Assembly: GCA_016802835.1 (NCBI GenBank)
Contig: JAEVHO010000001.1
Location: 1 to 60,623, forward strand
DNA: 60,623 bases
DNA from: Micromonospora sp. ATA32
GTDB taxonomy: Bacteria > Actinomycetota > Actinomycetes > Mycobacteriales > Micromonosporaceae
Direction of reading: 5' to 3'
Part shown: positions 505-58,204 of the stretch, one piece after another
Position numbering within the stretch: the stretch's first letter is position 1
Layout of the letters: every line of letters begins with the position of its first letter
Notes under the pieces: generated by a model
Told to the model about the DNA's origin: nothing
The model's database searches: none
The model's input: only the letters and a program-made list of their open reading frames with translations
Made by a program: the position numbers and the translations under genes

Positions 505-2543
505 GTGACCGAGCCGCCACCGGCACCGGGTTCCCCGAAAGACGCTGTCGCGCCCGAGACCGCGGGCGGCGAGGGAACACCCTACCTGCTCGTCATGCCC
601 GCCACCGACGGGGGCGCCGCCCACCGTGGAGTGGCCCGGGACGGACGGGGGGGCCCGCGTGGGCCATCCCGGTCACCATCCCGGCCGGCACCCGCGGGTA
701 CGCCGTGTTCGTCCCGATGCTGCCGTCCGCCGCGACGGCGCGCCGGTGCAGGCGGGCCCGGCAGCGGCACCAGCAGCGGCGGTCGAGGCGAAGCCGCCGA
801 CGGCCGAGCAGCCCCCGGCGGCCCAACCCCGGCCCGACAGCACGTCGGGCGGCCGTGACGCCCCCGGTCAGCACGGCGCCCGAGGCCCCCGTCGCGGCAG
901 CCGCGCCAACCGCCGCCCCGGCACCCACCAGCACGCCGCCGCCCGTCACCTCCACACCGACGGGACGGCACCAACCCTGGTGGCAGGAGCCGGTGCCCCC
1001 GGCGCAGCACCGCGGCTACCAGCCCCGACCGGTCCCGCCGTCGTTCCTGCAGACGCGGTGGGCCGGGACCGGCGCCGACGCGGGGTCGGGCCGTGCGGCC
1101 GCGGTCCTCGCGGGTGCGCTGGGGCTGGCGTTCTTCGTCCCGCTCAGCCGCACCGGCATCGGGTGGTTCCTCGGCTGGCTCGCCCTGACCGCCGGCGTGG
1201 TCGTCGCGGTCCGGCGGACCACCGCCGAGTTGCCCCGGGTCGAACGGCTGACCCGCGCCGGCTGGGCGGGGGCGGCGCTGGCGCTGCTCGCCGTGCTGGC
1301 CTTCCGCAACGCCTGGTGGCTGGTGACGTTCTGCGTCCTCGGCGCGCTCGGTTGCGCGGCGCTGGCGATCGTGGGCGGCCGGCTCGTCCGCTCGATCCTG
1401 TTCAGCATCGTGGCGGCGCCGTTCGCGGCGTTCCGGGGGCTGCCGTGGGTACGCCGCCACGTCCAGGCCCCCGCGGATCCGGGACTGGTCCGGCGGATCG
1501 TCGGGTCGGTCGCGGCCACCGTGGCCGTGCTGATCGTCTTCGGCGCGCTCCTCTCGTCGGCCGACGTCGCCTTCTCCGTGGTCCTCGGCAAGCTCGTGCC
1601 GGAGGTCAACGTCAGCACGGTGTTCCGGTGGATCTTCCTCGCGGCCGTGGGTGGGCTGACCGCCGTCGCCGCCGTCTACACGCTGGCCGCCCCGCCGGAC
1701 CTGTCCACCGTAGACAAGCCGAGCATGCGTCGGCTCGGCGTCGTGGAGTGGGCGCCGGCGATCGCCGCGTTGACGCTGCTCTTCGGCGGGTTCGTCGCGG
1801 TGCAGTTCACCGTGCTCTTCGGCGGCCAGACGCACGTGCTGCGCACCGCGGGTCTCAGCTACGCCGAGTACGCGCGCAGCGGCTTCTGGCAGCTGCTCAC
1901 CGTCACGCTGCTGACCGTGGCGGTGCTGGGCGGCGTGACCCGCTGGGCCCGGCGCGACCGGCCGGTCGAGCGCAACCTGCTGCGGGCGTTACTGGGCCTG
2001 ATCAGCGTGCTCAGCATCGTCATCGTGATCTCGGCGCTGTCCCGGATGTACACCTACCAGAAGGTCTACAGCTTCACCGGTGAGCGGATCTTCGTGATGG
2101 CGTTCGAGCTGCTGCTCGGCGCCGTCTTCCTGATGATCCTGGCGGCGGGGATCCGGTGGCGCGGGACCTGGATCCCCACCCTGACCGTGGGGCTCGCCGT
2201 GGTCATGCTGCTGAGCCTGGCCGTGCTGAACCCGGAGGACTACGCGGCCCACCGCAACATCACCCGGTACAAGCAGACCGGCAAGATCGATGCCTGGTAC
2301 CTGCGGGCGCTCTCCGCCGACGCGACGCCGGCGCTGGCCGGCCTGCCCGATCCGGTCCGCCGCTGCACGCTCAGCTGGATCGCCGACGACCTCGCCGAGC
2401 CAGATCCCTGGTACGCCTGGAACCTGGGGCGGGTGCGGGCGCGCAAGGCGCTCGACCGGAGCGGCCAGGGCGCGGTCGGCGGTCCTCAGGACTGCAAGGC
2501 GGCCGACCAGTTCGACCTGCCGAAGACCCGGCAGCCACGCTGA
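505..2543 (+). CDS. DUF4173 multi-pass membrane protein, frame-disrupted N-terminus
   Basis: The body (about 860 to 2543) is one open frame coding for a polytopic membrane protein with roughly ten hydrophobic segments. Its soluble C-terminus has the DUF4173 pattern (DAWYLRALSADATPAL, then a Trp-rich tail). Function is unknown for the family. The start is probably GTG at 505, behind a good AAGGAGGG site (493-500). The first 120 codons do not stay in one frame: reading VTEPPPAPGSPKD in frame 1, then TVEWPGTDG in frame 2, then AWAIPVTIPAGTRGY in frame 3, then an Ala/Pro-rich linker in frame 2, and finally frame 3 again. One switch is at a run of seven G (647-653). Either the sequence has several indels here or the gene is decaying. 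Downstream gene is on the opposite strand. Confidence 0.75.
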
Positions 2544-2579
2544 CCGACCCCGACGCCCGATCCGGCAGCCTGCCGTCGG

Positions 2580-2981
2580 TCAACTCACCCGCGCGCCGGC
2601 CCGGCGCCGACGGACCAGTCGGGCGCCGACACTCACCACAAGGGTCCCAACGGCCGTCCCGACCAGGACCAGGGCCGCGCCCACCGCCCAGAGCCCGGTG
2701 TCGTCGGTCGACGCGGCGTGCCGCGCCCAGGCGATGGTGAAGGCGGCTGTCATCACCGGCGCGACCAGCCACGGGCTGAGCCACCAGCCGGCGACGGCGG
2801 CGACCAGGGCCAGGGTGAGCACGCAGCCGACGACCTGCCACGCCGCGTACGGGCCGCTGGTCGCGCCGGTCTCCGGGTTGACGGCGTACCCGGTCTCCCA
2901 GCCCAGCCAGGCCCACCAGACCCCGACCGTCACCGCCGCGAGGATCAGGCCACCGAGCAAACCACGCGTCCGCGTCGTCAT
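2580..2981 (-). CDS. Small four-helix membrane protein
   Basis: Predicted product is 133 residues with four hydrophobic helices (starting near LLGGLILAAVTVG, VVGCVLTLALVAAVAG, WLVAPVMTAAFTIAWA and AVGAALVLVGTAVGTLVV) and an Arg-rich cytoplasmic tail (RRRRAG). ATG at 2981 is chosen because the conserved-looking hydrophobic protein begins there; GTG two codons upstream (2987) is an equally possible start, and the longer open frame to 3146 has shadow-like composition. Family not recognised; no function assigned. It is convergent with the DUF4173 gene, ending 36 bases away. Confidence 0.7.
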   Translation of the reverse strand: MTTRTRGLLGGLILAAVTVGVWWAWLGWETGYAVNPETGATSGPYAAWQVVGCVLTLALVAAVAGWWLSPWLVAPVMTAAFTIAWARHAASTDDTGLWAVGAALVLVGTAVGTLVVSVGARLVRRRRAGARVS

Positions 2982-4616: not shown

Positions 4617-5375
4617 ATGAGCTTCAACGTCACTGCAGACGCGTATGACCGGTTCATGGGTCGATTCTCTGAGCCGTTGGCAGCCCGGTTCGCGGAACTG
4701 GCCGAGGTGCAGGCGGGCCAGCGGGCGCTGGACGTCGGGTGCGGACCGGGAGGACTGACCGCACAGCTGGTGGACCGCCTGGGCGCAGACGCCGTCTCGG
4801 CGGTCGACCCATCCGCCCCGTTCGTGGCGGCCGTCCGCGCGCGCCTGCCCGGGGTCGACGTGCGCTCCGCCGTGGCTGAACGCCTTCCCTTTCCTGACGA
4901 CAGCTTCGACCTCGCCCTTGCCCAGCTGGTCGTGCACTTCATGGCCGATCCGGTGTCCGGGCTGTCAGAGATGGCCCGGGTCACCCGTCCCGGCGGCCTG
5001 GTCGCCGCCTGCGTGTGGGATCACGCCGGAGGCAGCGGTCCGCTCGCCACGTTCTGGCGGGCCGTGCACGACGTCGATCCACATGTGCGCGACGAGTCGG
5101 AGCTGGCCGGGGCTCGCGACGGTCACCTGGCCGAGCTTTGCGAAGCAGCACGCTTGAAGGACATCGAGCCCATCTCGCTGACCGTCACCGGCCGGTTCGC
5201 CACCTTCGACGACTGGTGGGAGCCGTTCACCCTCGGCGTCGGGCCGGCCGGTGCCTATGTCGCGCGGCTGGACGAGGCGCAGCGCGATGGGCTGCGCAGC
5301 CGGTGTCTGCAGCTCCTGCCACCGTCACCGTTCGAGATCGCTGCCTCAGCCTGGTGCGTGCGGGCTCGCGCCTGA
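4617..5375 (+). CDS. Class I SAM-dependent methyltransferase
   Basis: The 252-residue protein contains the SAM-binding motif I ALDVGCGPGGLTAQL near residue 40, followed by the acidic post-I segment (SAVDPS) and the methyltransferase type 11 core (LPFPDDSFDLALAQLVVHF), then RVTRPGGLVAACVWD. These place it in the UbiE/type 11 group acting on a small molecule. The substrate cannot be read from sequence. ATG at 4617 gives a typical N-terminus (MSFNVTADAYDRFMGRFS); a longer open frame to 4521 is unlikely to be used. Confidence 0.9.
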   Translation: MSFNVTADAYDRFMGRFSEPLAARFAELAEVQAGQRALDVGCGPGGLTAQLVDRLGADAVSAVDPSAPFVAAVRARLPGVDVRSAVAERLPFPDDSFDLALAQLVVHFMADPVSGLSEMARVTRPGGLVAACVWDHAGGSGPLATFWRAVHDVDPHVRDESELAGARDGHLAELCEAARLKDIEPISLTVTGRFATFDDWWEPFTLGVGPAGAYVARLDEAQRDGLRSRCLQLLPPSPFEIAASAWCVRARA

Positions 5376-5503
5376 CCGCGGTCCAGCGCGGGTCGCTTAC
5401 TCCCAGCCTCTTGTGTCACCGCCGTTCAGTCACCGGCGCAACCGCACCACCTGGGCATGAGAGTGCGAGCAGGGCGCCGCTGCGGGTCTCTGTGATTCGA
5501 CCG

Positions 5504-32963: not shown

Positions 32964-33859
32964 TGGCCGGCCAGGTTGAGGCGATCGACGGCGTCTTCCT
33001 CTGCATCCCCGTCGACCACATCGAGCCCGGCCCGAACGCCCGCGGCAACGTCGGCGACGTCACCGAACTTGCCGCCTCCCTCAAGGCGATCGGCCAGCTC
33101 GTGCCCGTCCTCGTCGAGCCCCTGCCCGAAGGTCGGTACCAGCTGCTCGACGGGCACCGCCGCCACGCCGCCGCCAACGAAGCTGGGATCGCCCACCTGA
33201 CCGCGATCGTGCGGCACACCGACGACAACGCAGTCCGGCGCACCGTCCGGCAGCTGAGCATCCAGTCGCACGCCCGACCGTTCGACCCGATGGCCGAGGC
33301 CCGCGCACTGCACAAGCTGATGTTCGAGCAGAACCTGACCCGGGAGGACATCGCCCGCATGGTCGGCAAGAGCCCCGGCTGGGTGCGGGACCGGGTCAGC
33401 CTCGTGCACCTCGAGCCCGGCGAGCAGCGGGACGTCGAGACCGGCCGCCTGTCGGTGTCGGAGGCGCTGCTGCGGCTGCGGAACCGGCGGGAGATGCGGG
33501 AGGGCCGCCAGCCCACCCAGCATCAGCCGGCACGCCCGTCCACCGGCAGGACGGCGGCCGCCCGGAAGACCGCCGCGCCGGAGGGCCGCCGCGCCCAGGT
33601 CGTGGCGCTGCTCGCTGACGGCGCGAGCCTCGACGACGTCGCCGCGGCGCTGCACATCTCCCCGTCGACCGCGAAGACCCACCTGCAGGACCTGTACCGG
33701 CAGCTCGGCGCCCGCAACGCCGCGCACGCCGTGCACCTGGCCTACCAGCAGGGGCTGCTTCGCGCCGCCGCCGGCTGTGACCGGTGCGCGTCCCGCCCCC
33801 ACCACGACCCGGCCGCCGTGGTGGCCGCCCAGCTCACGGAGGACAACGCCCCATGCTGA
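32963..33859 (+). CDS. ParB-like protein with C-terminal LuxR-type helix-turn-helix
   Basis: 298 residues. ParB/Spo0J N-domain in residues 15-90 (VDHIEPGPNARGNVGDVTEL, then YQLLDGHRRHAAANEAGI with the GxRR-type loop). A KorB-like helix-turn-helix follows (TREDIARMVGKSPGWVRDRV). The C-terminal third adds a LuxR-type helix-turn-helix (DDVAAALHISPSTAKTHLQD). A single-copy prophage needs no partition system, so this may be a regulator rather than a partition protein, or serve a plasmid-like stage. Confidence 0.85.
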   Translation: MAGQVEAIDGVFLCIPVDHIEPGPNARGNVGDVTELAASLKAIGQLVPVLVEPLPEGRYQLLDGHRRHAAANEAGIAHLTAIVRHTDDNAVRRTVRQLSIQSHARPFDPMAEARALHKLMFEQNLTREDIARMVGKSPGWVRDRVSLVHLEPGEQRDVETGRLSVSEALLRLRNRREMREGRQPTQHQPARPSTGRTAAARKTAAPEGRRAQVVALLADGASLDDVAAALHISPSTAKTHLQDLYRQLGARNAAHAVHLAYQQGLLRAAAGCDRCASRPHHDPAAVVAAQLTEDNAPC

Positions 33860-35832
33860 CGAAGCGTCGGAACACTCGGGGCGTCGCCGAGCACCGGCCT
33901 GCCGCCCGCCGCCGCCGGTTTGCCCACGACGACCTGGTCGCGGTCGACCTGTTCTCCGGCTTCGGCGGCCTGACCCGTGGCATCGAGCAGGCCGGGTTCA
34001 CCACGATCATGGCGGCGAACCACAACGCCTACAAGGTCGAGGTCCACGAGGCCAACCACCCGGACGCCGAACACTGGATCGCCGACCTGGTCGACCCCGA
34101 ATCCTCCGACTACCACTCGGCCCGCGACCTTCCAGCCGCCGACATCCTCGTGGCCGGCGTTAGCTGCGTGAACCACTCGCAGGCCAATACGCAGAAGGCG
34201 TACGAGCAGCGGATGAGCCTGTTCGACCTGGACGACCCGGACTTCGACGCGCGGGTGACGCGCAGCGAACGGGACCGGGCGACGGCGAACTGCGTGCTGC
34301 ACTACGCCGCCCAGCACCACCCGCGCATGATCCTCGTCGAATGCACGACCGAGCTGACGTCGTGGGGGCCCGCCATTCCCGGGCGGGCGAAAGTTGGCGA
34401 CGGATCAACGTACCGGTGGTGGCTCAAGCAGTTTGAGAACCTGAACTACCGGCACAAGGTGCTGTACCTGAACTCACAGTTCTTCGGGGTGTCGCAGTCG
34501 CGGGACCGGTACTACTGCGCGTTCTGGGACAAGAGCTTGCCCACTCCAGACCTGGAGCACCGGCCAGCGTCGTGGTGTGGTCGGTGCAGCGAGATCATGC
34601 CCGCGGTGTGGTCGTGGAAGACCGGCATCCCGCCGACTGGGTCGGTGCGCTACGGCAAGCAGTACAACTACCGCTGCCCGCGCTGCCGCAGCGAGGTCGT
34701 CCCGCCGATGAGCCCGTCGCTCAACGCGCTCGACCTCAGCAACCTCGGCACCCGGATCGGCGACCGTGCCAAGCCACTCGCGCCCGCGACGATGGCCCGT
34801 GCCGACCGTTGCCGGCAGCGGTTCGCAGAGTTCCCCGCGATCCTCATGCCCGCCAAGGCCGTGCACGGCACGGAGCGGCACCCCTGGCAGCCGATGGCCA
34901 CCCAGACCAGCCAGCAGGAAACAGCGCTCCTCTCGACCGGCGCGATCATGGCCGCTGCCGGGAACACGTTCGAGCGCCCCGGATCCGACTGCCGCAGCCG
35001 CGACCTGAGCCAGCCGCTGTGGGCGCAGCCCGCCACCAACACGACCGCGCTGCTCGCGCCCCCAGTGGCGCTCACCGGCCAGGTGTTCGCCGCGCACAGG
35101 CACAACGGCGACGGCCAGCACATTGCCCGGCCGATGGACACCGTCACGAGCACGCACGAGAAGGCGGTGCTGCTCGCCGCGGTCAACAACTACCAGGGCG
35201 CCCCGCGCGGCGTGAACGAGCCGCTGTCGACCCAGGGCGGCTCCGAAACACTCAGCCTGCTGTCCGCCGGCGTCGTGCCGTTCCGCAAGAACACGGTGCC
35301 GACCACGCACGCGGAGCCGATGCCGACGACGACGTCCGAGCAGATCCCCGGTCTGCTGACCGCGGCTGGCACGATCAAGAACAACGGTGCGATCGACGAA
35401 GCGAAGTACCGCGCCCACCCGCTCAGCGACCCGCTCGGCACCGTCGTCGGCTCGGCCGTCACGCAGGGCTTGCTGTTCTCCGGCTGGTACAAGCAGAACG
35501 GCTCCGGTGCGGACGCGACCGCCCCTCACCCCGTGTCCGACCCGCTGGGCACTCTCACTGCCCGTGACACGACGGCTGTGCTGACAGCCGAATGGCGTGC
35601 CGCGCTCGCTGACCTGGCGTTGGAGGACTGCTACTTCCGCATGCTCGGCCCGCACGAGGTCGGCCGCGGGTGCGGGTTCGACGTGGACTTCCCCGGCTAC
35701 GAAGGCAGCTTCGTCGTGTGGGGTTCCGCCCGGGACCAGGTGGACGGGTTCGGCAATGCCGTGTCGCCGCAGGTCGGCGAGTGGATCGGCTCGCGACTGC
35801 GGGCTGCGCTGCACCGCGAGGTGGCGGCATGA
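33853..35832 (+). CDS. C5 cytosine methyltransferase-like protein with repeat-rich recognition region
   Basis: 659 residues. Motif I VDLFSGFGGLTRGIEQAG, a motif IV variant LVAGVSCVNHSQAN (Cys kept, but not the usual PPCQ), a motif VI variant LVECTTEL (Glu kept), motif VIII GVSQSRDRYYCAFW and motif X FGNAVSPQVGEWI. Between VIII and X lie a four-Cys zinc knuckle (WCGRCSEIM, RCPRCRSEV) and seven spaced repeats of the form P(L/M)xTxT...LLxA. The changed motif IV means the chemistry may be altered, though a methyl or modified-base transferase is the best guess. Likely protects phage DNA or modifies a regulatory site. Confidence 0.82.
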   Translation: MLTKRRNTRGVAEHRPAARRRRFAHDDLVAVDLFSGFGGLTRGIEQAGFTTIMAANHNAYKVEVHEANHPDAEHWIADLVDPESSDYHSARDLPAADILVAGVSCVNHSQANTQKAYEQRMSLFDLDDPDFDARVTRSERDRATANCVLHYAAQHHPRMILVECTTELTSWGPAIPGRAKVGDGSTYRWWLKQFENLNYRHKVLYLNSQFFGVSQSRDRYYCAFWDKSLPTPDLEHRPASWCGRCSEIMPAVWSWKTGIPPTGSVRYGKQYNYRCPRCRSEVVPPMSPSLNALDLSNLGTRIGDRAKPLAPATMARADRCRQRFAEFPAILMPAKAVHGTERHPWQPMATQTSQQETALLSTGAIMAAAGNTFERPGSDCRSRDLSQPLWAQPATNTTALLAPPVALTGQVFAAHRHNGDGQHIARPMDTVTSTHEKAVLLAAVNNYQGAPRGVNEPLSTQGGSETLSLLSAGVVPFRKNTVPTTHAEPMPTTTSEQIPGLLTAAGTIKNNGAIDEAKYRAHPLSDPLGTVVGSAVTQGLLFSGWYKQNGSGADATAPHPVSDPLGTLTARDTTAVLTAEWRAALADLALEDCYFRMLGPHEVGRGCGFDVDFPGYEGSFVVWGSARDQVDGFGNAVSPQVGEWIGSRLRAALHREVAA

Positions 35833-54017: not shown

Positions 54018-56279
54018 GTGACCGTGGCGATCACCCGGGAGACGCTGCGGCAGCTCCGTCAGCTCGCCACCACCGTCGGCGGACACGCCGACGACACCAC
54101 CCGGCAGCTCACCGCCGCCTGGGTGCGGGCGTGGGACGAACTCGCCCCCGCCTGGCAGCAGGCCATCGCCGACCTCATCGCCAAGGCTGCAGCCGACGGG
54201 CACTGGCCGCCGCCGTGGCAGCTGGCCCGCATGGAGCGGCTCGCCGCCGCGGTGGTGGCCACCTCCACCGCCCTCGACGGCCTGGCCGCGCAGTCCGGCA
54301 TCACCATGGCCGCCGGGACCGGCCCGATCGTGGCCGCCACCGCCACCGCCGAACCGTTGCTCATCGCCTCGCAGCTACCCGCCAGCCTGGCGGCGGCCGC
54401 GGCCGGCGAGTACGCGGCGAAGCTCACCCCCACCGCCCTCGACGTGATCGTGCGGCGCACCGGGGAGCAGATCACCGCCCGCACCCGGCCCCTGTCGGCC
54501 GCCGCGACCGAGGCGATGCGCCGCTCCCTGATCCGGGGTGTGGCGGTCGGCGACAACCCCAACGCGGTGGCGCGGGACATGGTGCGGCGGGTCGAGGGCG
54601 ACTTTTCGGGCGGTCTCGGCCGGGCGATTGTGGTGGCCAGGACCGAGATGTTGGACGCATATCGAGAGGTGTCGAGATACGCGCACTCGGCGAATGCGGA
54701 CGTGCTCGACGGCTGGACCTGGCACAGTGCGCTAGACCGCAGATCATGCCCGGCCTGCTGGTCAATGCACGGGCGCGAGTTCCCGATCGAAACGCCAGGG
54801 CCCCTCGGGCACCAACAATGCGTACTGCCTGGCGCCGTGGTTGAGGGGCCCCGTCCCGTCGCGTCAACGGCGCGTTGGTATGCGGGAGAGGTCGTCGATG
54901 TCGAGACCGACGGCGGGCACTTCCTTTCCGTCACTCCAAACCACCCGATACTGACCCCGAATGGTTGGGTCGCTGCTGGCGACCTCCATGAAGGAAGCTA
55001 CGTAGTCTGCGGCAGCGGGCTTAAGGGGCGCCTTCCGGCCGATCACCCAGACGACTACCAGGTTCCAGCCCTGATCGAGGATGTAGCGCAGACGCTCGGG
55101 GGCGCGGCGCCGATGGTTGCCGTAGGCGTGCCAACCGCCGCCGAAGATTTCCACGGCGACGGCGCCGGCAGCGAAGTCCACGTTGTACGGGCCGATGGCC
55201 TTCTGCGGAATCGCGTCCACGCCGCGCTCGCTCAGCCAGGTCAGGGACTGGCGCTCTGCGACCGACACGTTCGCGAGGTTCCAGCGAGCACTGCGTTCCC
55301 GCGACTCAGCGTTGTTGACCTTGTGCTCCCACGTCAGGGGTACGCCCCGGGTGGCCGCCTGGGCTGCGCGCATGATGACAGCGTTCTGTTCGGGAGTTCG
55401 CTGGTCGACCATCAGCCGGTTCGCGTCGGCCACGGAACGACGCGCAACCCCGGCGTCCTTCAGCCGCCGTTGAATGACGGTGCGGGAGACGCCGAAACTC
55501 TTGGCCAGGGCGTTCTCGGATTCGCCGGCCCCGTAGCGGCGCGCCAGCTCGTCGATGGGGACGTCGGTTTTGCTCATGGCGATGCGGGCGGACTTTTCGG
55601 CGGCAAGCCGTCGCGACTGCCCTTTGGTTCGCCAGAGTTCGCGCTCGATGAGGATGTCGCGCAGGCGGGCTTGGCTGGTGTGATGGCGAGCGGCGGCGGT
55701 TTCGCAACTCTCGCCGGCAGCGTAGTCGGCAACGGCCCGTTCGATGGCATCAGGGGGGCAGCGACGCTTCAAGCCGCGCAGTTCGCCGGGCGCGCGCAAG
55801 AGGTGGCGAGCGACCAACTCTCGCTTGAGTCGGACGTCCCATACCCCGTGCCGTCGAGAGGCGGCCTGGAGGCTTTCGCCGGCAACGTAGTCAGTTATCG
55901 CGTCCTCAAGATTTCCCGACGCGGTTGGTCCGGTCACGTCTACAACCTCCAGACGACCGAGGGTTGGTACCTGGCAAACGGCATCGTGACGCACAACTGC
56001 CGTTGCACCAGACTACCAAAGGTCAAGTCGTGGCAAGAGCTGGGGATCAACCTCACCGAGCCGGCCGATCAGACACCCGACGCCCGCGCCCGGTTCGATG
56101 CGCTGCCCGAGGAACGGCAGCTGACCATCCTCGGCCCCACCCGCCTGGCCCTGCTGAAAGCCGGGCGCATCCAGTGGGCGGACCTGGCGACCCGCCGTGA
56201 CACCCCCGGCTGGCGGCCCTCGTACGCGCCCACCCCGGTGGCCGACCTGCAGCGCATCGTCGACCGGGCCGCCGCCTGA
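54018..56279 (+). CDS. Phage head-morphogenesis protein (Mu gpF/SPP1 gp7-like) interrupted by an intein
   Basis: 753 codons from GTG 54018 in one uninterrupted frame. Extein part 1 (residues 1-267) is helical and ends with the zinc-type head motif CPACWSMHGREFPIETPG, LGHQQ. Extein part 2 resumes at CRCTRLPKVKSWQELGINL, so after splicing the protein reads GHQQ-CRCTRLP, the family signature. The mature extein would be about 360 residues. The intein (54819-55997) is canonical at both ends, but its middle is antisense to a nuclease gene. Without splicing the protein would carry a 393-residue foreign segment. Confidence 0.9.
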   Translation: MTVAITRETLRQLRQLATTVGGHADDTTRQLTAAWVRAWDELAPAWQQAIADLIAKAAADGHWPPPWQLARMERLAAAVVATSTALDGLAAQSGITMAAGTGPIVAATATAEPLLIASQLPASLAAAAAGEYAAKLTPTALDVIVRRTGEQITARTRPLSAAATEAMRRSLIRGVAVGDNPNAVARDMVRRVEGDFSGGLGRAIVVARTEMLDAYREVSRYAHSANADVLDGWTWHSALDRRSCPACWSMHGREFPIETPGPLGHQQCVLPGAVVEGPRPVASTARWYAGEVVDVETDGGHFLSVTPNHPILTPNGWVAAGDLHEGSYVVCGSGLKGRLPADHPDDYQVPALIEDVAQTLGGAAPMVAVGVPTAAEDFHGDGAGSEVHVVRADGLLRNRVHAALAQPGQGLALCDRHVREVPASTAFPRLSVVDLVLPRQGYAPGGRLGCAHDDSVLFGSSLVDHQPVRVGHGTTRNPGVLQPPLNDGAGDAETLGQGVLGFAGPVAARQLVDGDVGFAHGDAGGLFGGKPSRLPFGSPEFALDEDVAQAGLAGVMASGGGFATLAGSVVGNGPFDGIRGAATLQAAQFAGRAQEVASDQLSLESDVPYPVPSRGGLEAFAGNVVSYRVLKISRRGWSGHVYNLQTTEGWYLANGIVTHNCRCTRLPKVKSWQELGINLTEPADQTPDARARFDALPEERQLTILGPTRLALLKAGRIQWADLATRRDTPGWRPSYAPTPVADLQRIVDRAAA
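54819..55997 (+). mobile_element. Intein in the head protein, with antisense nuclease gene inside
   Basis: 393 residues. Block A from Cys1 (CVLPGAVVEGPRPVAS), block B HFLSVTPNHPILTPNGW with the TxxH residues, block F GHVYNLQTTEGWYLANG and the C-terminal junction IVTHN followed by Cys+1. All splicing residues are canonical, so splicing should work. Between the blocks about 280 codons read as Gly/Val/His-rich nonsense (e.g. AETLGQGVLGFAGPVAA), the mark of an antisense shadow. That stretch codes, on the other strand, for the nuclease at 54864-55937. Confidence 0.9.
54864..55937 (-). CDS. Vsr/DUF559-like homing endonuclease, antisense inside the intein
   Basis: 357 residues on the minus strand from GTG 55937, with a good GGAGG site at 55946-55950 (8-base spacing); a longer frame to 55994 exists. 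Three helix-turn-helix repeats share the word Y-x-A-G-E-S: AITDYVAGESLQAASRRHGV (13-32), AVADYAAGESCETAAARHHT (68-87) and ARRYGAGESENALAKSFGVS (132-151). The nuclease domain is at 215-310: helix VAERQSLTWLSERGVD with Glu228, AIGPYNVDFAAGAVAVEI with Asp254 and Glu263, and FGGGWHAYGNH with His270. That is the E-D-x-E-GG-H layout of Vsr/DUF559 (EDxHD) nucleases. It lies wholly inside the intein, read codon-for-codon opposite it. Confidence 0.85.
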   Translation of the reverse strand: MTGPTASGNLEDAITDYVAGESLQAASRRHGVWDVRLKRELVARHLLRAPGELRGLKRRCPPDAIERAVADYAAGESCETAAARHHTSQARLRDILIERELWRTKGQSRRLAAEKSARIAMSKTDVPIDELARRYGAGESENALAKSFGVSRTVIQRRLKDAGVARRSVADANRLMVDQRTPEQNAVIMRAAQAATRGVPLTWEHKVNNAESRERSARWNLANVSVAERQSLTWLSERGVDAIPQKAIGPYNVDFAAGAVAVEIFGGGWHAYGNHRRRAPERLRYILDQGWNLVVVWVIGRKAPLKPAAADYVASFMEVASSDPTIRGQYRVVWSDGKEVPAVGLDIDDLSRIPTRR

Positions 56280-56321
56280 CCGTCACCGCACACCCTCGCG
56301 CCCGAACCGGGAGGCCCGATC

Positions 56322-58204
56322 ATGTCCAGACGGCGAACACCGCCGCCCCCCGCCCACCGCGGCGGACGTCGGCCGCGCCCTGGTCCGCTACACCCCGCGC
56401 AGCCGGCAGGTCCTGGCCGAGATCGCCGAGTCCGCCGCGTCGGCCACCCTCGACCGGCCGGCCGAGCGGGTCGCGGTCGTCGAAACGCCTGCCGTTCTCG
56501 AAGCACCCAAGGGGCGGCCAGGACGGCTGTCGATCAGACTCATAAGGGCCGGCTGGAGCCTCAACGGGAACTTCTATCCCGCGGAGGTGCTGCGCAGGGA
56601 CGGACCGGCGGCATGGCCCAAAGGCACGCTGGCCTTCGTCGATCACGCGACCGACGAAGAGGACGACGCCCGGCCCGCCGGCAGCATCAAGAACCTCGCC
56701 GCGGCGCTCACCACCGACGCCCGGTGGGACGAACGCGAGCAGGCGCTCATGGCCGAGGTGCGGCTGTTCGCCCCCTGGCGGGAGCCGATCACCGACATGG
56801 CCGAGCACATCGGCATGTCCATCCGGGCGTGGGTGTACGGGGAACACGGTGAGGCCGACGGCCGGCACGGGTTCATCGTCTCCGGCATCCCCGAAGGCCG
56901 CTCCGTCGACTTCGTGACCACACCGGCGGCAGGGGGTGGCATCGTGTCCGTCCTCGAATCGGTCGGCGCCCGCGCCCTGTCGGAGGCCCGGAACGTCGGC
57001 GCGTGGCTGGAATCCCGGCTGCACCTCGCGCTCACCCAGCTCGGCGACGACATGTACGGGCAGGGCCGGCTCACCCGCGACGAGCGGATCACACTCTCGT
57101 CGGCGATCGGCGACGCCCTGCAGGCGTGGACGGCGCGGGTCGAGCAGGACGCGCCGCAGCTCTTTCAGCGGGATCTCTGGGATGACCCCGAGTCGGGCGA
57201 GCAGACGGCCGCCGAGGCCCGCCGCGCCCGCGAGCGCCGGTGGAGCAGATCCGCGCCGCCCTGCAGGCGGCCGTGCAGAAGACCCACGGCGGCAAGGACA
57301 CGTACGCGTGGGTGCGCGACTTCGACCCCGACCGGGCGCTCGTCTGGTTCGACGTGAACAACCGCGACGGGTCGAAGACGTGGCAGCAGCCGTACACGGT
57401 CAACGCCGACGGCGTGGCCGGCCTGACCGGCGACCCCCTCGAGGTGATGGCCCGGGTCGTCTACGACCCGGTCGGCGCGGCCGAAGCCACCACCCCCACC
57501 CCCCAGGACATGGCCGCTGCGGCGGTTCGTGAACACGTGACGGACGGCGCCCCGCCGGCCGCACCCAACCCACCCAACAAGGAGGAGCCCGAGATGTCGG
57601 GAACCCAGGCCGGCGGTCAGTCGCCGGGCGAGGCGGGGACGGCCACCACCGAGGCCCGCACCGCCACCACCGAGGCCGCCGCGGAGGCGCGGCTGCCCAT
57701 CGTCGAGGCCGAGCGGGACCAGCTGCGCGCCCGTAACACGGCGATGAGCGAGCAGCTCGCCGAGGCGCAGGCCGAGAGCCGTCGGGCGCGCGCCGAGGCG
57801 CAGGAGGCCGTCGCCGAGCGGCGTCGGCTGACCGCCAACGAGGCCGGCCGCAGCACCATCGACCGGATGCTCACCGCCGACGAGGCGGGCGTTCCCGCCG
57901 ACATGCAGCCGCTGATCGGCCCGCGCGTGCACGCGCAGATCCTCAACCACGTGCCGCTCACCGACGCCGGTGACGTCGACCAGCCGGCCCTCGAGGCGGC
58001 GGTCACGGCGGCGATCCGCGCCGAGCGGGTCCACGCCGCGTCGCTGCTGGAGGCGCAGGGCGTCGGCCGGTCGCCGGCCTCGGCGCCGACGGCGACCCGA
58101 ACACCCGGATGACCCGGGAGCAGTTCGAGGGCGGCATGGCCGACGTGTTCAAGACCATCGGCCTCGACGACAGCGTGGCCAAGCTCGCCGCGAAGGGGCG
58201 ATGA
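56322..58204 (+). CDS. Prohead protease / scaffold-like protein, three frame breaks
   Basis: Start ATG 56322 (MSRRRTPPPP). The frame breaks at a run of six C (56346-56351), then reads TAADVGRALVRYTPRSRQVL and a capsid protease domain (GRLSIRLIRAGWSLNGNFYP, TLAFVDHATDEEDD, IGMSIRAWVYGEH, SVDFVTTPAAGG). A second break near 57240 leads to VEQIRAALQAAVQKTHGGKD and a long coiled-coil scaffold region (ERDQLRARNTAMSEQLAEAQ). A third break near 58070-58090 leads to DGDPNTRMTREQFEGGMADV and the stop at 58204. Protease plus scaffold in one polypeptide is usual in such phages. The breaks are probably sequence errors. Confidence 0.7.

Follow-up and report, generated by a model that had tools for sequence, protein, structure and literature searches.

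An intein in a phage-type minor head gene of Micromonospora sp. ATA32 with a predicted Vsr-type nuclease gene on its opposite strand

Canonical inteins with a homing endonuclease (HEN) carry the enzyme in frame, as part of the same polypeptide. Antisense homing-endonuclease genes occur in some group I introns, and fractured genes and split inteins were reportedly linked with Vsr-like HENs by Dassa et al. in 2009, the HEN being, as is said, a freestanding gene between the intein halves and not antisense within one intein. Here, we describe an intein at positions 54819-55997 of a 60,623-nucleotide stretch of DNA from Micromonospora sp. ATA32 (contig JAEVHO010000001.1; this whole stretch is called the window), whose opposite strand holds an open frame for a putative nuclease. 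With canonical HEN inteins (PI-type LAGLIDADG inteins, Mtu RecA) it has in common the Hint domain, the residues C1, TxxH and HN|C and a conserved codon site; unlike in these, the nuclease would be a separate protein from the opposite strand. We assign a probability of roughly 0.85 to the reading that this is a mobile intein with two jobs split between the DNA strands, one which would splice, be transcribed in antisense, cleave and home.

I-Bth0305I and the EDxHD nucleases (PMC3943268) share with the protein described here a Vsr-like fold and a multi-domain architecture with DNA-binding units. I-Bth0305I, however, is named as a mobile intron protein, whereas the gene in the window lies antisense inside an intein and specifies three helix-turn-helix (HTH) units. 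The closest arrangement in the papers searched, the ShiLan element, is described as an out-of-frame HNH nuclease in the 'third frame' of a phage DNA methylase gene, for which no splicing domain and no ribosome-binding site (RBS) were found there; it resembles the window's intein in that a nuclease is hidden in an insertion that is open in the host frame too (PMC11855218). In contrast to this element, the window has a nuclease of Vsr type on the opposite strand, a Hint domain and a clear Shine-Dalgarno (SD) sequence, and classification as a ShiLan-type element was rejected on the strand, the nuclease type and the Hint domain. The features of the sense strand are as follows, with the evidence in brackets (ORF, open reading frame; AF2, AlphaFold2).

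54018-56279, plus strand: MuF-like minor head protein gene with intein (ORF, Phage_Mu_F, PHROG, neighbours)
54819-55997, plus strand: intein, C1 ... HN|C (splicing residues, Intein_splicing, Foldseek)
54819-55013, plus strand: N-terminal Hint half, blocks A-B (AF2, sense-type conservation and substitutions)
55014-55880, plus strand: sense centre, an insert predicted to be mostly disordered, open opposite the nuclease (AF2, conservation)
55146-55163, plus strand: sense block DFHGDG, opposite the catalytic strand VAVEI (column identities versus expectation)
55881-55997, plus strand: C-terminal Hint half, blocks F-G (AF2, GHVYNLQT..HN conservation)

The intein comprises 393 codons and reads from Cys1 at 54819 through a TPNH block B to a THN|C end, with Asn at 55995-55997 as its last residue and the next Cys at 55998. 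The Pfam model Intein_splicing matched ORF 54018-56279 with 1.9e-7 (31.4 bits, cut-off 35.8) and is listed with 3.3e-8, still below cut-off, for the intein itself. A Hint fold was predicted by AF2, with a confidence score (pLDDT) of about 90 or more for both halves, namely 89-98 for residues 1-60, 76 for residues 61-70 and 90-98 from residue 361 on, and the top Foldseek matches were Mtu RecA mini-intein structures (best E 3e-4); residues 115-306 in the sense centre stayed below 50. C1, T39, H42 and N393 are invariant in an alignment of 37 inteins, the rows of which were picked by junction motifs and hence by the splicing residues themselves; Intein_splicing was found in 36 of these 37, and GHVYNLQT..HN is kept in the C-terminal Hint half across relatives. 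Pfam revealed no in-frame endonuclease in the sense intein, so that it differs from a canonical HEN-bearing intein, its nuclease being on the minus strand. These results bear out the preliminary description of the locus, which had reported all splicing blocks and no endonuclease in the intein's own frame. Its sequence marks the element as an intein of a MuF minor head gene, and splicing is predicted. The following features were assigned to the opposite strand.

54864-55937, minus strand: antisense gene for the nuclease, starting with GTG and coding for 357 aa before the stop (open frame, start signals, AF2)
55946-55950, minus strand: SD sequence GGAGG, 8 nt before the GTG, opposite block F codons (SD test)
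55935-55937, minus strand: nuclease start GTG, reverse complement of the block-F His codon CAC (start-codon test)
55809-55910, minus strand: HTH unit 1, residues 10-43 (AF2 helices)
55644-55754, minus strand: HTH unit 2, residues 62-98 (AF2 helices; weak HTH_23 match, 0.016)
55455-55556, minus strand: HTH unit 3, residues 128-161 (AF2 helices; HTH_58, 3e-4)
54936-55262, minus strand: Vsr/MTES_1575-type nuclease domain, residues 226-334, with E228, D254, E263 and H270 (MTES_1575, structure Z, conservation)

The minus-strand frame is open up to 55994 and ends with a stop codon at 54864-54866; its supported start is the GTG at 55935-55937, which gives a protein of 357 aa. Pfam matched this protein to the MTES_1575 nuclease (2.6e-4) and to HTH_58 (3e-4), both under cut-offs. 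The AF2 model, built from a 34-row alignment, reached a mean pLDDT of 89.2 over the 357 residues and consists of three three-helix HTH units followed by an alpha/beta nuclease domain. When the best 1000 Foldseek chains were re-ranked, Vsr (1cw0) came first (Z 10.4, 113 residues, 2.5 Å) and I-Bth0305I third (Z 9.1, 94 residues, 2.6 Å); a 42-row nuclease profile found I-Bth0305I at 5.7e-4, and MTES_1575 was matched in 31 of these 42 nucleases. E228, D254, E263 and H270 are all invariant in the 34-row alignment; in the 42-row alignment D254 and E263 are invariant and E228 is kept in at least 90%, H270 not being listed. Alignment with 3r3p, the I-Bth0305I structure, pairs both Glu residues with those of the nuclease and places an Ala opposite D254. 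Going by the model, the nuclease has a Vsr-type catalytic fold, in agreement with the earlier proposal of an antisense Vsr/DUF559-like nuclease with three HTH repeats.

Across the nuclease overlap the sense and antisense frames share codon boundaries, so that a sense stop can arise only opposite an antisense TTA, CTA or TCA codon. The in-register opposite frame contains no stop in 107 loci (the window included, some near-duplicates, 83 nonredundant; locus GC 0.35-0.71) over a scored stretch of up to 700 nt; the other two opposite frames have 3 to 43. Codon usage in the neighbouring frames predicts 368.5 TTA/CTA/TCA codons for those 79 of the 83 nonredundant nucleases that had enough codon data, and one was seen; it faces the stop codon of a head gene itself and lies beyond the overlap. 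For the 16 loci below 50% GC, 141.4 were expected and none was seen. In agreement with the earlier claim that the sense frame must be kept open, it is open in the overlap of all these loci. Since in-register antisense frames can also stay open simply at high GC, the minus-strand frame might be a chance product opposite GC-rich DNA in which only the sense strand codes. Inteins found by searching 296 genomes of the phylum with PF14890, which matched in 111, served as control; the 30 loci returned have no ORF matching the nuclease family. Motif-based placement solved just 6 of the 30, and the 20 loci with a match spanning at least 600 nt were used instead. These contain 134 in-register opposite stops in 6498 codons, and three of the 20, all with a GC of 0.58 or more, have none. 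The six controls under GC 0.46, however, have 15-21 such stops each, whereas the nuclease frame is open at locus GC 0.35-0.49 as well. A chance frame would also leave unaccounted for the confident nuclease fold, the disorder predicted for the sense centre, the wobble pattern of the centre, which belongs to the antisense frame, the start signals and the freestanding relative (the last three are described below), and we regard it as extremely improbable.

The block-F start pattern was found in 62 of 83 loci; in these the block-F His codon is the reverse complement of ATG in 47 and of GTG in 15; elsewhere in these ORFs His is encoded by CAT in 162 of 500 cases. An SD sequence lies 4-12 nt upstream in 49 of the 62 loci, versus 14.4 expected (sd 3.3, maximum 30) when the sense codons were redrawn synonymously in 200 draws.

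Conservation of both frames was assessed by permuting the synonymous codons of one strand and reading the residual identity on the other (83 sequences; left out were the freestanding L009, the HTH-only matches L017 and L018, and L001, which repeats the window). With the sense fixed, antisense identity was 0.354 versus 0.188 after shuffling; with the antisense fixed, sense identity was 0.277 versus 0.201. Since shared descent inflates such an excess, flanking genes were taken as control: at matched identity their opposite-strand excess was 0.003-0.008 versus 0.019-0.052 in the nuclease centre, in 161 flanking-gene pairs and 1500 sampled of 3153 nuclease pairs, the pairs not being independent of each other. 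Along the element, the mean excess for antisense and sense, respectively, was 0.149 and 0.017 in zone 55323-55770, 0.215 and 0.009 in zone 55176-55322, 0.260 and 0.291 in zone 55140-55175, and 0.090 and 0.250 in zone 54867-55004, opposite the N-splicing domain. The first two zones together have 1 of 171 columns above 0.15 for the sense, zone 55140-55175 has 8 of 12. The latter contains the block DFHGDG, which faces the catalytic strand VAVEI of the nuclease with the invariant E263 and whose residues are kept in 75 (D), 91 (F), 90 (H), 90 (G), 97 (D) and 86 (G) per cent of the 83 sequences; its column identities are 0.59-0.95 versus 0.22-0.50 expected from the nuclease. Its residues H112 and D114 are invariant in the 37 intein rows and kept in 90% and 97% of the 83 sequences. 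The Gly at 55161 is kept in 86%, with P, S, A or T as the antisense residue, so that the third sense base varies and the amino acid stays, which points to a protein-level constraint on the sense strand. Judged from these alignments, the sense centre is not a pure shadow of the nuclease, even though there is little sense conservation beyond that shadow except in the DFHGDG zone; the preliminary view of a shadow-like sense centre is therefore apt for most of it and fails at 55146-55163. The conservation of DFHGDG comes close to that of the splicing residues, although the motif lies in a part which AF2 folds without confidence.

The substitutions follow the same division. For 26 close pairs, which share members so that the counts are descriptive, the differences at nuclease codon positions 1/2/3 were 769/478/1344 in the centre and 330/78/247 opposite the N-splicing domain. 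Among codons with a single change, 793 altered the sense residue only and 259 the antisense residue only in the centre, compared to 131 and 212 in the splicing domain. Substitutions in the centre thus resemble those of a nuclease gene and, over the splicing domain, those of an intein; this codon-level comparison in relatives had been proposed beforehand. Since AF2 folds the nuclease and leaves the sense centre below 50, a folded nuclease would lie opposite a mostly disordered insert. That the sense centre mostly follows the nuclease's shadow might also mean that only the nuclease matters and that the sense centre or the whole intein is not translated into a functional intein, the element being an antisense gene that simply disrupted the head gene or lies in an RNA intron. 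We consider this very unlikely, as the splicing residues are invariant, sense stops are absent, substitutions over the splicing domain are of the sense type and many host ORFs match a head-protein family plus the intein model. Furthermore, no Rfam match up to E 1 was obtained for either strand of 54600-56300, and a group I or II intron was rejected on this result.

Intein-less homologues of the head gene, the search for which had been suggested, do exist. Among 201 genomes searched, three of the same genus, not counting that of the window, contain a head gene that lacks the intein at the window's site, with 54-65% identity over the joined exteins, and in two of the three a Gly replaces the first Cys. 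The Kagunavirus phages fFiEco03 and Shashou have an uninterrupted PAHPN|CRST at the position that the intein occupies in Snoke and Salmonella phage PK1. Alleles lacking the intein at this site occur both in the genus and in phages. Another Kagunavirus, KMB36, carries an intein of the same kind at a second site of the head gene (L008, 2614-4605, minus strand). The Acinetobacter phages IME285 and BUCT629 encode the nuclease in a gene of its own, which converges with a head gene that lacks the intein but retains a CKC motif near its end:

L111, 3833-4726 (plus strand) and 4720-5433 (minus strand): freestanding nuclease relative and intein-less head gene of Acinetobacter phages (convergent pair)

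This freestanding nuclease contains 13 TTA/CTA/TCA codons, 10 of them in the scored stretch. It may be ancestral or escaped; our nuclease tree was a quick one, and its weak deep branches fit either.

Established here are the anatomy of the element, conservation of both frames, the start signals, empty sites, predicted folds and the freestanding relative. In the mechanism that we propose, forward reading within the head gene would yield a Hint domain with a long, mostly disordered insert, and this intein would excise itself to leave an intact head protein. Backward reading in the same register, from its own SD sequence and start in the block-F codons, would yield a three-HTH endonuclease of the Vsr/I-Bth0305I type. 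When phages co-infect a cell or exchange DNA with a prophage, the latter would cut intein-less head genes at an HPN|CRC-type site, and repair of the cut gene would copy the element in. In T4-like phages, homing nucleases can play a part in competition between phages, and the nuclease is conserved over a wide phage range, so a real antisense nuclease might instead serve another role, e.g., the exclusion of rival phages, with homing secondary or lost. This appears unlikely, albeit less so than the other alternatives, since homing is usually recognised by just this setting, a nuclease within an intein whose conserved codon site is empty in relatives; both roles may moreover coexist.

Several points weigh against the reading as a mobile two-strand intein. 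The Pfam matches of the window's nuclease and intein all lie below the curated cut-offs. Foldseek alone puts I-Bth0305I first, yet with an E of only 0.017, and a 34-row nuclease profile gave no I-Bth0305I match at E 0.005. Of the proposed E/D/E/H residues the acidic ones are kept, but H270 is not universal, being present in 89% of the 83 sequences. The minus-strand protein is a predicted product whose antisense transcription we infer from sequence, and a scan of 55700-56500 found no sigma-70-like promoter, other promoter types not being covered by it. Finally, the empty sites represent a pattern of presence and absence and not active homing as such, and the reading does not account for the conserved sense motif DFHGDG.

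Relatives of the element are numerous. At E 1e-5, the sense intein has matches in 111 phage records and the antisense protein in 130, and scans with three nucleases found 13 loci in genome contigs and 374 confirmed matches in viral_contigs, 80 of which were kept. As anticipated in the preliminary description, there are thus minus-strand homologues with conserved residues. The genome loci span Actinomycetota, Pseudomonadota, Bacillota, Chloroflexota, Cyanobacteriota, Gemmatimonadota and a PVC bacterium. From the 82 nonredundant loci besides the window, 71 host ORFs were scanned, with matches to Intein_splicing (63), Phage_Mu_F (45), Phage_min_cap2 (7), VG15 (3) and dCMP deaminase (1). The dCMP deaminase-type ORF is, by its sequence, L015 of virus Rctr197k, in which the element sits in a dCMP deaminase-like gene (L015, 619-2025, minus strand). 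Junctions are commonly HPN|C ... HN|CRC or near variants; both were placed automatically in 57 of 83 loci, some C-junctions a few residues early. A scan from the sense side found an antisense nuclease free of stops in its body in all of the best 80 of at least 540 loci (35 already in the nuclease-side set, 69 distinct). The antisense frame is intact in these homologous inteins; a broken one opposite a conserved sense centre would have spoken against the original proposal. Stops occur only in about the first 20 or last 28 codons of the matched stretch, that is, before the nuclease start or at its end, so that the body is uninterrupted; as the best 80 were ranked by whole-intein match, nuclease-free mini-inteins would be under-sampled. 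A class-wide search, in which 186 of 394 genomes matched, gave a whole-nuclease score at three places among the matches listed, namely the window itself, L113 and L114, the others listed being weak and mostly confined to the HTH part. The antisense frame is listed in 1 of 17 embedded phage records (L004-L008, L010-L015, L148, L149, L151, L262-L264), that of PK1. In this Salmonella phage it is annotated as a hypothetical protein (L006, 2938-3747, plus strand).

The same layout was also found with other nucleases. A Hint intein of another kind is common to the Vibrio phages 1.266.O, 1.082.O and 1.265.O, and the two loci opened (L148, L262) have an in-register antisense DUF559 nuclease with Pfam values of 1.9e-10 and 7e-13, respectively, preceded by an SD sequence in L148. 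In the Gordonia phages Barsten, SchottB, Lennon, Nordenberg, Sitar and Thing3, yet another intein type occupies the site where Fosterous has an intein of the window's type, the exteins of Fosterous, Barsten and Lennon being 94-98% identical over 600 nt on each side. In Barsten and Lennon, where we looked at it, the in-register antisense ORF encodes 196 aa with a LAGLIDADG-like motif. Its PDB matches are all to I-MsoI or variants (best 5.4e-4, two individually weak stretches), PHROG names its family 'HNH endonuclease' (2e-15), and no Pfam match and no clear SD sequence upstream were found for it; the LAGLIDADG label is consequently tentative.

L148, 1634-2368 (minus strand) and L262, about 1989-2729 (plus strand): Vibrio antisense DUF559 nuclease (Pfam)
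L263 and L264, 2594-3184, minus strand: Gordonia antisense LAGLIDADG-like ORF (motif, PDB and PHROG matches)

On the basis of these predicted genes, the antisense in-register layout is not a one-off, with two further combinations of intein and nuclease. It seems likely to us that antisense codon-register nucleases represent a distinct and recurrent class of mobile inteins in the minor head genes of phages, to which at least two unrelated folds (Vsr-like, LAGLIDADG-like) and, as a third line, DUF559 were recruited; in its largest family one DNA stretch would encode both the catalytic-Glu strand and a nearly invariant sense motif, with RBS and start within block F, and the ban on TTA/CTA/TCA would be lifted outside the intein. 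The titles and abstract openings of the papers found in our searches revealed no antisense endonuclease in an intein, though a 2025 preprint on actinobacteriophage inteins (doi 10.1101/2025.01.02.630785) might contain one. This study by Gosselin, Arsenault and Gogarten may cover minor capsid inteins of Gordonia phages and a 'non-canonical architecture', and might already note the Gordonia cases.

Long genes that overlap in antisense, with selection demonstrable on both frames, are to our knowledge rare and disputed. With its many natural members and a freestanding relative that serves as built-in control, the present family makes the cost of dual coding measurable codon by codon. Antisense placement would free the intein nuclease from the expression and folding of the host protein, and the layout, which annotation tends to miss, suggests a route for homing nucleases into splicing elements. 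With Snoke and Shashou, natural intein-plus and intein-minus E. coli phages exist in which the homing claim is directly testable.

Regarding its setting, the ORF 54018-56279 encodes a MuF-like minor head protein precursor of 753 aa including the intein, with a Phage_Mu_F match of 2e-7, above cut-off, and a PHROG head protein match of 5.7e-28. Terminase, portal and head genes lie near it, and given these genes and the 6.1 Mb assembly in 891 contigs, the window is probably a prophage or phage contig. Pfam and inspection by eye showed no hidden insert in the DNA methylase gene at 33784-35832. Outside the window, the same assembly contains other PF14890 intein matches on two contigs (C150:4907-5686 and C317:2402-3648).

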